Positions 18,062 through 21,609 of a stretch of DNA of 51,269 bases are shown here, piece after piece (position 1 is the first letter of the stretch; each line of letters starts with the position of its first letter). Both the position numbers and the translations under genes were made by a program. The notes beneath the pieces are model-generated. The model was not told the DNA's origin, ran no database searches, and worked only from the letters and a program-made list of their open reading frames with translations. The stretch is from an uncultured Bacteroidales bacterium (GTDB lineage: Bacteria > Bacteroidota > Bacteroidia > Bacteroidales > JAFGXI01): positions 1-51,269 of the forward strand of contig CAMZKE010000040.1 in NCBI GenBank assembly GCA_947311115.1, written 5' to 3'.

Positions 18062-18123
18062 TTTGGTTTTACAATAGCTAATGGTTATTATTGTATTATT
18101 ATTATTTAACAAAAAATAACCAA

Positions 18124-19449
18124 ATGAAACAATTACTACTTTTTTTAATCATCATAAGTCTTGTAAATATTTCAACTTTTGCACAACAAGATTCAACTAT
18201 AACAGATACTACAACAGTAAAAAAGAAAACAGGTTTTAGTTTTGGAGGCGTTCCTATTATTGCTTACGATAGCGATTTAGGTTTAAAATATGGAGTATTG
18301 GTAAATTTCTTTTTTTACGGAAAAGGCGAAAGTTCTCCTGACCCAAATCATAATATTTACTTAGAATGGAATCAAACAACAAAAGGTTCGCAGCTTTTTT
18401 TAGGTAAATACAAAAGCCGTACATTAATAAAAAATATAAGAACAAATTTTGAGGCTAGATATATAACAGAAAAAGCGCTTCATTTTTATGGATTTAACGG
18501 ATATAATGCCGAGTATAACCCTTTGTTTGAAGATGAAACTGACAATCTGTACAAATCAAGATTATATTACAGACATGCAAGAAAATTACTAAGATTTAGA
18601 GCCGATTTTGAAGGAAATATTATTAAACACAAATTAAGATGGTTTGCCGGTTTATCGTATAATAAATTAGATATTTCAACTGTTGATGTAAACAATTTAA
18701 ACAAAGGATTATCCGATTCTAAATTGCCCGACACTTCGCTTTACTCAGATTATATTAACTGGGGAGTAATTAATGAAAATGAAAAAAACGGAGGATATTT
18801 AAACGAAATTAAATTTGGTGCTGTGTACGATACAAGAGACAACGAAGCAAATCCAAACCACGGTATGTGGTCAGAAATTATTTTATCAACTGTGCCTCAA
18901 TTTTTAGGAAATCAATACACTTACGGAAAATTAATTCTTACACATAGACAATATTTTACCCTTATAAAAAAACATTTAACATTTGCATATAGAGTAAGTT
19001 ACCAACCTAAAATATTTGGCACAATGCCATTTTACGCTCTTCCGTTTGTACATAGTAGCGACGATACCAGAGACGGCTTAGGTGGCTCTCGTACGCTACG
19101 TGGAATATATCGTAATCGTGTAGTTGGCGAAGATTATGCATTTGCAAATTTAGAGTTTAGATGGAAATTTGTAAAATTTAATGTACTAAAACAAAATGTA
19201 TATTTAGCTCTTTTTCCTTTTGTTGATGGTGGCTTGGTAACCAAAAAGTATAATTTTAATGAAACAGGAATTCCTCTTTCAAATAAAGATGAATTTAATA
19301 ACTCAACAGAAACATTACATATTGGTTATGGTAGTGGATTAGCTATAGCAATAAATCAAGATTTTATTATTACAGCAACTTATGCTCTTGCAAACAGCTA
19401 CAAAGATGGCACAAGCAGTTTGTATATAACAATTAATTATCTGTTTTAA
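18124..19449 (+). CDS. Omp85/BamA-type outer-membrane barrel protein
   Basis: A 441-residue outer-membrane protein. The signal peptide MKQLLLFLIIISLVNISTFA is followed by a short periplasmic stretch without POTRA repeats and then a 16-strand-type barrel of the surface-antigen (Omp85) family. Evidence includes FGAVYDTRDNEANPNHGMWS (about 240), the loop-6-like motif LGGSRTLRGIYRNRVVG (about 318, equivalent to VRGF/Y) and ANLEFRWKF. The protein ends in a phenylalanine (TINYLF), as barrel substrates of BAM do. Lack of POTRA domains separates it from BamA and TamA; a patatin-like or transport partner is not visible. The start is the ATG at 18124, since the extension from 18091 would precede the signal peptide. 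Confidence 0.75.
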   Translation: MKQLLLFLIIISLVNISTFAQQDSTITDTTTVKKKTGFSFGGVPIIAYDSDLGLKYGVLVNFFFYGKGESSPDPNHNIYLEWNQTTKGSQLFLGKYKSRTLIKNIRTNFEARYITEKALHFYGFNGYNAEYNPLFEDETDNLYKSRLYYRHARKLLRFRADFEGNIIKHKLRWFAGLSYNKLDISTVDVNNLNKGLSDSKLPDTSLYSDYINWGVINENEKNGGYLNEIKFGAVYDTRDNEANPNHGMWSEIILSTVPQFLGNQYTYGKLILTHRQYFTLIKKHLTFAYRVSYQPKIFGTMPFYALPFVHSSDDTRDGLGGSRTLRGIYRNRVVGEDYAFANLEFRWKFVKFNVLKQNVYLALFPFVDGGLVTKKYNFNETGIPLSNKDEFNNSTETLHIGYGSGLAIAINQDFIITATYALANSYKDGTSSLYITINYLF

Positions 19450-19467
19450 TGTGTATTTTTTAATTTG

Positions 19468-19559
19468 CAGAGGGGGCAAGGATCGAACTTGCCACAGCCG
19501 GTTTTATCCGTCTGCTACCGGTTTTGAAGACCGGCTGAAACACCAGTTTCGTCCCCTCT
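19468..19559 (-). tRNA. selC: tRNA-Sec (anticodon UCA)
   Basis: On the minus strand the sequence folds as a selenocysteine tRNA. The acceptor is AGAGGGG with CCCCTCT (eight pairs if C19560 and G19468 are included). The D-arm GAAAC-TGGT-GTTTC has a four-base loop. The anticodon arm is CCGGT-CTTCAAA-ACCGG with the anticodon TCA (complement of 19525-19527). The long variable arm CAGACGG-ATAAAA-CCGGCTG has one mismatch, and the T-arm is GCAAG-TTCGATC-CTTGC. The UCA anticodon, 92-base length, tight D-loop and long variable arm are diagnostic. The 3' CCA is not encoded, and the exact end base is uncertain by one. It decodes UGA as Sec with SelB. No other sel gene is in the window except the YedF-like gene. 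Confidence 0.93.
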
Positions 19560-19682
19560 GAATACTATCGCAAATGTATTAATTATTTTTATGTTAAAGA
19601 ATATTTTTTCACAAAAACACTTTATTTATAGCATTTAAGAGTAATTATTTATAACAAAATAACAAATCTATATATTTAATAT

Positions 19683-19748: not shown

Positions 19749-20618
19749 ATGAGTATTTTAGTAAATAAAGATTCAAGAGTAGTTGTACAAGGTTTTACCG
19801 GTGGTGAAGGTACTTTCCACGCAACTCAAATGATTGAGTACGGAACAAATGTTGTTGGTGGAGTAACTCCCGGTAAAGGTGGTCAAGAGCACCTAGGTAA
19901 GCCTGTATTTAATACAGTTGCTGATGCTGTTGCAAAAGCACAAGCTAATACATCAATTATTTTTGTACCACCTCCATTTGCAGCCGATGCTATTATGGAA
20001 GCTGCTGATGCAGGTATAAAAGTTATTGTAGCTATTACAGAGGGGATTCCTACAGCTGATATGGTTAAAGTGAAAGAATATTTATCTGATAAAGATTGTA
20101 GAATGATTGGACCTAATTGTCCTGGTATCATTACTCCGGGCGAAGCTAAAATTGGTATTATGCCTGCATTTATTTTTAAAGAAGGTAGAATTGGAGTTAT
20201 ATCAAAATCAGGTACATTAACATACGAGGCTGTTGACCAATTAACAAAAGCCGGTTTAGGACAATCTACTGCTATTGGTATTGGTGGCGACCCAATTATT
20301 GGTACATCAACAAAAGACGCTGTTCAATTATTTATGGAAGACCCTGATACTGACGGTATTGTAATGATTGGTGAAATTGGGGGTTCTATGGAAGCTGAAG
20401 CTGCCGAATGGATTAAAGAAAATGGAACTAAGCCTGTTGTAGGATTTATTGCCGGTCAAACTGCTCCTAAAGGAAAACGTATGGGACATGCCGGTGCTAT
20501 TATTGGTGGTGCTAATGATACTGCTGCTGCAAAAATGAAAATTATGCGTGAGTGTGGTATTCACGTTGTTGAATCACCTGCTGAAATTGGTGCAAAAATG
20601 AAAGAAGTTTTAGGTTAG
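19749..20618 (+). CDS. sucD: Succinyl-CoA synthetase alpha subunit
   Basis: A 289-residue subunit of the ADP- or GDP-forming succinate-CoA ligase, which interconverts succinyl-CoA and succinate with substrate-level phosphorylation. The N-terminal CoA-binding domain shows [20 protein letters not shown] and VNKDSRV. The phosphohistidine is H247 in [13 protein letters not shown]. The length equals that of E. coli SucD. The beta subunit gene sucC is not adjacent, although it usually is; it must lie elsewhere. Codon choice (GGT, GCT rich) looks that of a highly expressed gene. With meaB at 49 kb this fits a succinate-propionate branch. Confidence 0.95.
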
Positions 20619-20878: not shown

Positions 20879-21169
20879 ATGAAAAATTATTCAAAAAAAA
20901 TAATGCAAAGTGCCGAGAATAATACTTTTGTATTTAAAAGAACTTTATTAGCAGTTTCGCTATTAATAAAGCAAAACAATCAAGATTGTGCTAATTTTAA
21001 ATCATGGGTAATTTCTAAATATTATTCAAAATATAAAGATGAAATAAACTATGTGTTTAATCTCGATTTAAAGAAAAACCATTCTGACTTTTCAATTGCA
21101 CAACATCTTGCAAACAAAATTAAATATCAATACGAAAAACAATTATACAAACAGAAAGTAGCAATATAA
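20879..21169 (+). CDS. Uncharacterised small protein, paralogue A
   Basis: A 96-residue basic, helical protein without signal peptide or membrane segment. I do not recognise the family. It is clearly paralogous to the gene at 21322-21609: shared segments include FKRTL, VSL, NNQD, KDEINYVF and HLANK/HLSNK, at the same spacing. Conserved tryptophan and paired tyrosines (W-I-x-x-Y-Y-S) suggest a compact helical fold. It lies between repeat copies 3 and 4, with a TATCTTTA-like box about 40 bases upstream. No functional inference is justified. Confidence 0.65.
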   Translation: MKNYSKKIMQSAENNTFVFKRTLLAVSLLIKQNNQDCANFKSWVISKYYSKYKDEINYVFNLDLKKNHSDFSIAQHLANKIKYQYEKQLYKQKVAI

Positions 21170-21321: not shown

Positions 21322-21609
21322 ATGAAAACATTTGCTAAAATAATTATTAACGGAGCTTCAAAAGATAAAAATTTGTTTAAACGAACATTAATGTCAGTTT
21401 CTTTAATGCTTCAAAAAAATAATCAAGATTTAGAATATTTTAAATATTGGATTATAAACAATTATTATTCAGAGTTTAAAGATGAAATTAATTATGTTTT
21501 CGATATTGATTACTCAAAAAATAAAGACGAATTTAATATTGCTATTCATCTATCAAATAAACTAGAAAAAGAATATAATAAGTTAATAAATAAGAAAGTT
21601 ACTGCATAA
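21322..21609 (+). CDS. Uncharacterised small protein, paralogue B
   Basis: A 95-residue protein homologous along its whole length to paralogue A (20879-21169), with nearly half of aligned positions identical by eye. The most constant parts are FKRTLMSVSL near residue 19 and YYSEFKDEINYVFDIDYSKN near 49. It is highly charged and helical, with no export signal. The last 11 bases overlap the 3' end of the converging LD-carboxypeptidase gene. Tandem duplication of a repeat-plus-gene unit is a reasonable origin, since a repeat copy precedes each gene. Confidence 0.65.
   Translation: MKTFAKIIINGASKDKNLFKRTLMSVSLMLQKNNQDLEYFKYWIINNYYSEFKDEINYVFDIDYSKNKDEFNIAIHLSNKLEKEYNKLINKKVTA

Follow-up and report, generated by a model that had tools for sequence, protein, structure and literature searches.

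The question raised by this locus is whether a short segment of a 51,269-nt contig from an uncultured Bacteroidales bacterium (the window, that is, the whole stretch of DNA analysed) encodes a working selenocysteine tRNA and, if so, which UGA codons are read with it. The minus strand from 19559 to 19467 was reported by ARAGORN as tRNA-SeC with the anticodon TCA, and the Rfam model RF01852 matched the window with 59.2 bits (gathering score 47, E = 1.5e-9), which bears out the identification of selC made in a preliminary description of this DNA. The source genome (G000) is a draft MAG of 3.53 Mb in 163 contigs with 99.25% completeness; in a genome-wide scan with RF01852 selC was the sole match over the cut-off, and the next-best matches were ordinary tRNAs of 42 bits or less. 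Besides the RF01852 score, the gene has the UCA anticodon, the long variable arm and the G73 expected of a selC gene. We consider it very probable, judging from sequence, that this segment is a functional selC, and that the UGA codons served by it include those of selD and two redoxin-like genes.

The limits of the gene, 19467..19559 (minus strand), are based on ARAGORN, RF01852, covariation and the register of C74 in other tRNA genes. The anticodon TCA, which reads UGA, is located at 19525..19527 in the loop CTTCAAA (ARAGORN and alignment). Pair counts placed the 7-bp acceptor stem at 19559-19553 with 19475-19469, the D arm, of five standard pairs and the 4-nt loop TGGT, at 19537..19550, the long variable arm at 19494..19515 (99% of cells paired) and the T arm, of 5 bp with the loop TTCGATC, at 19476..19492, all on the minus strand. 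The discriminator G73 is position 19468 and C74 is position 19467, and the gene stops short of the last two bases, CA, of the CCA end. The earlier account of the anticodon loop, the four-nucleotide D-loop and the long variable arm was correct.

The pairing scheme was evaluated in an alignment of 25 full-length selC sequences from Bacteroidota genomes, with covariation counted over 24 distinct homologs. Both sides had changed in 11 pairs, compared with 3.5 in shuffles, and 96% of the cloverleaf cells were paired, compared with 35-52% when the partners were slid. G19468 is invariant (25/25), the base 3' of it is always C, and the sixth, outermost position of the D-stem, next to the five standard pairs, is unpaired in 23 of the 24 homologs, being mostly C.A or A.A. 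In the stack, 7 pairs belong to the acceptor and 5 to the T-stem, 12 bp in total rather than the 13 bp of the 8+5 subtype; the 7-bp acceptor, the 5-bp T-stem and G73 are the features of the 7+5 (Cloacimonetes) subtype. The preliminary description had proposed an 8+5 stack. This did not hold, as the C after G19468 is C74 and the eighth pair is mostly U.G elsewhere, and the 92-nt coordinates given there themselves fit 7+5.

The usual bacterial 8+5 arrangement, in which C19560 would pair with G19468 and C19467 would be the discriminator, nevertheless has some points in its favour: these two bases are able to pair, 23 of the 25 homologs of the first set have a T or a C at the place of C19560, and the Rfam alignment takes in the pair. 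Against it, further homologs show A or G at the first partner position, and in other genomes the would-be pair C19560-G19468 corresponds mostly to U.G and in some cases to A.G or G.G. The assignment of G19468 as G73 and C19467 as C74 follows from the fact that in these genomes the tRNA genes of nearly all kinds that were seen encode the discriminator and one C after it. The homologs that encode CCA (L033, L040, L043, L150, L151 and L153) carry it directly after the equivalent G, and serylation requires G73 (PMC5330540). An 8+5 stack is thus very unlikely, and the 7+5 stack is the preferred reading. Accepted tRNA-Sec with a stack of 12 bp are on record, and the Secmarker study described the 7+5 'Cloacimonetes type' in several groups, noting that a 13-bp rule puts its G73 at the wrong position; Bacteroidota are not mentioned in its text among the groups with this type (PMC5330540). 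In this group, too, the discriminator is placed wrongly by tools built on a stack of 13 bp.

The preliminary description was right that the 3' CCA is not encoded in selC, but the contrast it drew with tRNA-Ser is misleading: among nine other tRNA genes seen in the genome, tRNA-Ser(TGA) of the window is the only one that encodes it, and the remaining eight, like selC, encode N73-C74 only. In many Bacteroidales loci tRNA genes of nearly all kinds (Gly, Thr, Tyr, Leu, Lys, Phe, Pro, Arg and Ser) likewise end with the discriminator and C74, followed by unrelated sequence. For the Bacteroidetes/Chlorobi group a published survey reports that CCA is not templated by most tRNA genes, and the retained C74 is not discussed under that term in the same paper (PMC5143459).

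The gene is flanked by two open reading frames on the plus strand, which, judging from their sequence, are probably a sucD-like gene for a succinyl-CoA ligase alpha-like protein (19749..20618), divergent from selC, and a gene for an outer-membrane surface-antigen-like protein (18091..19449), convergent with it. Downstream of the sucD-like gene, two adjoining and clearly similar ORFs of about 95 aa (20879-21169 and 21322-21609, plus strand) are apparent tandem duplicates. The -7 box of Bacteroidota promoters has the consensus TAnnTTTG, and TACATTTG at 19571..19578 (minus strand), 10 nt before the tRNA, fits it. This weak signal is suggestive only: in the window the pattern has a frequency of 1.26 per kb and strand, a -33 TTTG is not evident upstream of selC at the usual spacing, and scans of the surroundings of selC for promoters and terminators did not rise above chance. 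The placement of selC was compared between the window (19467-19559), L049, L021-L041 and L150-L174. Of 34 selA loci of Bacteroidales, 26 have it immediately upstream of selA; in the two genomes of its own genus it has left the selA operon for a different site in each species, its neighbour being the sucD-like gene here and, in the sister species, a mutS2-like one.

Such a displaced gene might be a relic in a genome that no longer makes or inserts selenocysteine, and the patchy distribution of the Sec trait, which implies frequent losses, would agree with this. As the preliminary description pointed out, the gene would be a relic if selA, selB and selD were absent from the genome; a search found all three, so that this objection falls. 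The genes selA (538 bits) and selB (310 bits), which overlap head to tail, are located on contig C102, and selD (404 bits) is located on contig C154, each scoring over its curated cut-off. Together with selC they form a complete Sec-decoding gene set in one genome. The selD gene itself has one in-frame TGA, in the motif SPGAGUGCK. That these three genes are intact, that all the tRNA stems are kept and that the UGA-containing genes stay open past the UGA makes a relic hardly credible, and a functional selC remains the preferred reading.

By analogy with established biochemistry, SerRS would load serine onto tRNA-Sec, SelA would convert it to selenocysteine with selenophosphate provided by SelD, and SelB, if it binds SECIS elements as assumed, would carry Sec-tRNA to UGA codons with an mRNA hairpin behind them. 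In SelB (L009:1483-3423) the EF-Tu-like and SelB beta-barrel domains were matched. Its C-terminal part of about 270 residues had no match in Pfam, the winged-helix models included, and the SECIS-binding end of SelB may be divergent in this group.

The preliminary description suggested that UGA may be recoded in some genes of this organism and that ordinary gene calls may cut them short. At the level of sequence both suggestions are borne out, since at least three genes with an in-frame UGA, selD and two redoxins, are evidently read with selenocysteine. The search started from conserved in-frame TGA codons in related loci, which led to three T9SS-tailed families, and the redoxin-like family was then used as a query. 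The first redoxin gene (L133:2603-3397, contig C128) has the motif IDFFYSDUPTC and the second (L134:3295-4005, contig C112) the motif LDFFSVGUPTC, so that the UGA is found at the first Cys of CxxC in both (SDUPTC and GUPTC). Both match redoxin/AhpC-TSA models, and after the UGA both carry the T9SS sorting domain TIGR04183 (44.2 and 32.7 bits, respectively, with a cut-off of 23; for the second one the Pfam score is below the cut-off and the NCBIfam score above it). By eye, both proteins begin with a signal-peptide-like stretch. In the sister species the second redoxin has an ortholog, 51% identical over its full length, with Cys at this site (SVGCPSC). There are many sorting-domain matches in the genome, which suggest the presence of a T9SS.

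If the UGA is read through, the products would be UxxC thiol/selenol oxidoreductases, presumably exported by the type IX system; if translation stops there, the short fragment produced would lack both the sorting domain and the second half of the active site. As the stop would remove the sorting domain, only the selenocysteine-containing redoxin could be exported by T9SS. We infer the charging of the tRNA, the readthrough of UGA with insertion, the export and the redox activity from these sequence features.

As to the carriers suggested previously, the peroxiredoxin-like class did prove to contain UGA, and the formate dehydrogenase class did not: the genome has three molybdopterin oxidoreductases, the group to which a formate dehydrogenase would belong, none of which has an in-frame TGA. 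In the window, the selA/selB contig and the selD contig no selenoprotein gene was found except selD. The list for this genome is a lower bound; families were searched one at a time, and an AhpC-TSA scan of the genome, which recovered one of the UGA redoxins and missed the other, indicates that such a search is not exhaustive. With a UCA anticodon the tRNA could in principle carry another amino acid, and UGA would then be read as a residue other than selenocysteine through a general code change or a suppressor. The probability of this is practically negligible, given the tRNA-Sec structure with G73, the presence of selA, selB and selD, and the lack of a reported in-frame TGA in most other conserved genes covered by the searches (for example 19/20 AhpC-TSA matches and 3/3 molybdopterin genes).

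The distribution of these genes is in line with the reading of UGA as selenocysteine. Sec decoding in Bacteroidales is patchy, as had been supposed for Bacteroidota: selA was present in 35 of 295 genomes (12%), and among 60 genomes of relatives 9 had a selA that scored over the cut-off. A close relative of the redoxins was found in 82 of the 295 Bacteroidales genomes, and selA in 13 of the 16 genomes with a UGA redoxin compared with 11 of the 66 other redoxin-bearing genomes (Fisher p = 2e-6, an optimistic value because close relatives are not independent samples). Among 20 TGA-bearing stretches fetched from relatives, the TGA takes the place of the first Cys of CxxC in 19, the exception being that of G184. 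Three MAGs in which selA gave no hit have UGA at the redoxin active site (G038 with L205 and L206, G149 with L207, and G239 with L208); perhaps the selC-selA-selB cluster is missing from these assemblies, or the UGA genes are decaying.

A draft MAG and a single stop per gene are also what would be seen if the UGA redoxins were pseudogenes or sequencing errors, with selenocysteine in SelD alone or nowhere. A random stop, however, would not hit the catalytic Cys in 19 stretches on different contigs, the genomes concerned are enriched for selA, the frame stays open to the sorting domain, and the RNA after the UGA is structured, which makes pseudogenes or errors extremely unlikely as the explanation. 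RNA folding over the 48 nt behind the UGA is more stable than over those behind the Cys codon of homologs (mean z -1.66, n=18, versus 0.12, n=20; p = 1.4e-4). The hairpins of the two redoxins of this genome are only moderately unusual (z about -2), and selD, with z -0.7 after the UGA in a simpler test, is not unusual.

Two further T9SS-tailed families with in-frame UGA were observed in relatives. One is a protein of about 600 aa with an invariant UGA (TMGCFCVSUGLTPPG), encoded directly upstream of selC/selA in nine relatives (L024:4944-6734, L026:3099-4892, L027:2671-4461, L028:1930-3720, L031:3066-4859, L032:2444-4237, L035:7927-9768, L039:5801-7615 and L041:8016-9809). It has 119-odd invariant residues, a CxCxxUG motif and a common hairpin about 18-40 nt after the UGA. 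Pfam has no domain that covers the UGA, NCBIfam selenoprotein models did not match, and it looks like a new selenoprotein family; among the matches listed for the source genome, which were mostly to the sorting domain, none had a TGA. The other is a beta-propeller-like protein of about 545 aa with a conserved UGA (SLCUGSAE), encoded upstream of the former gene (L024:3300-4934, L026:1-1647, L027:1021-2661 and L031:21-1664). It also had no NCBIfam selenoprotein match and is a candidate for a second new family. AlphaFold models of two of the T9SS families were poor (pLDDT 57 and 47). In addition, two Bacteroidota have, near selA, a formate-dehydrogenase-like gene whose in-frame UGA occupies the customary Sec position, CARLUHSSTVAGL (L029:6212-8932, minus strand, and L034:9085-11802, plus strand). 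The second of these loci, from the cultured Perlabentimonas gracilis, also has selC-selA.

It is fairly probable that selenocysteine in Bacteroidales serves mostly in proteins that are secreted or displayed on the surface, in the form of an extracellular selenoproteome. Several unrelated families (the UxxC redoxins, the protein of about 600 aa and the beta-propeller-like protein) have the UGA upstream of the T9SS signal. With the UGA upstream of the sorting signal, export itself would depend on the selenium supply, and exported selenoproteins of this kind would, if real, link that supply to the cell surface. An extracellular selenoproteome was not found in the selenoprotein inventories that could be checked, and in the literature searched the words 'selenoprotein' and 'T9SS' co-occur, once each, in a single paper, which deals with a CRISPR array. 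Standard gene calling cuts the UGA redoxins at the UGA, so that the active site and the export signal are lost and misannotation results. The share of sampled Bacteroidales genomes with the marker gene selA given above can be set against a survey of 2006, which detected no Bacteroidetes with Sec decoding (PMC1794560).

A working Sec system in this genome is a further case of known bacterial Sec decoding, and its selC tRNA is nothing out of the ordinary, which is less true of the putatively exported UGA proteins. Like the selC of Escherichia coli, which is of the 8+5 type, this tRNA has a UCA anticodon, a long variable arm, a 4-nt D-loop, G73 and the partners selA, selB and selD; it differs in an acceptor that is one pair shorter (7+5 = 12 bp, not 13), in a D-stem of 5 standard pairs instead of 6 and in the lack of an encoded CCA apart from C74. 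With the Cloacimonetes type, as described in PMC5330540 from earlier work, it shares the 7-bp acceptor, the 5-bp T-stem and G73, and also an acceptor/D linker that is one nucleotide short, if the C.A position is counted in the D-stem; the likeness is one of the described fold, and the groups named there do not include Bacteroidota. The SelD of this genome does not differ notably from selenoprotein SelD (TIGR00476), with 404-411 bits and one UGA, which lies in the N-terminal UGCK motif. UxxC redoxins are among the 119 selenoprotein families of the current inventory (PMC13188914), and the two redoxins resemble its redoxin-family and Prx-like thiol:disulfide oxidoreductase selenoproteins in the redoxin/AhpC-TSA fold, as judged by sequence, and in UxxC. 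No NCBIfam selenoprotein model scored over its cut-off with the T9SS-tailed UGA redoxins, and what sets them apart from the inventoried proteins is the C-terminal T9SS sorting domain after the UGA.
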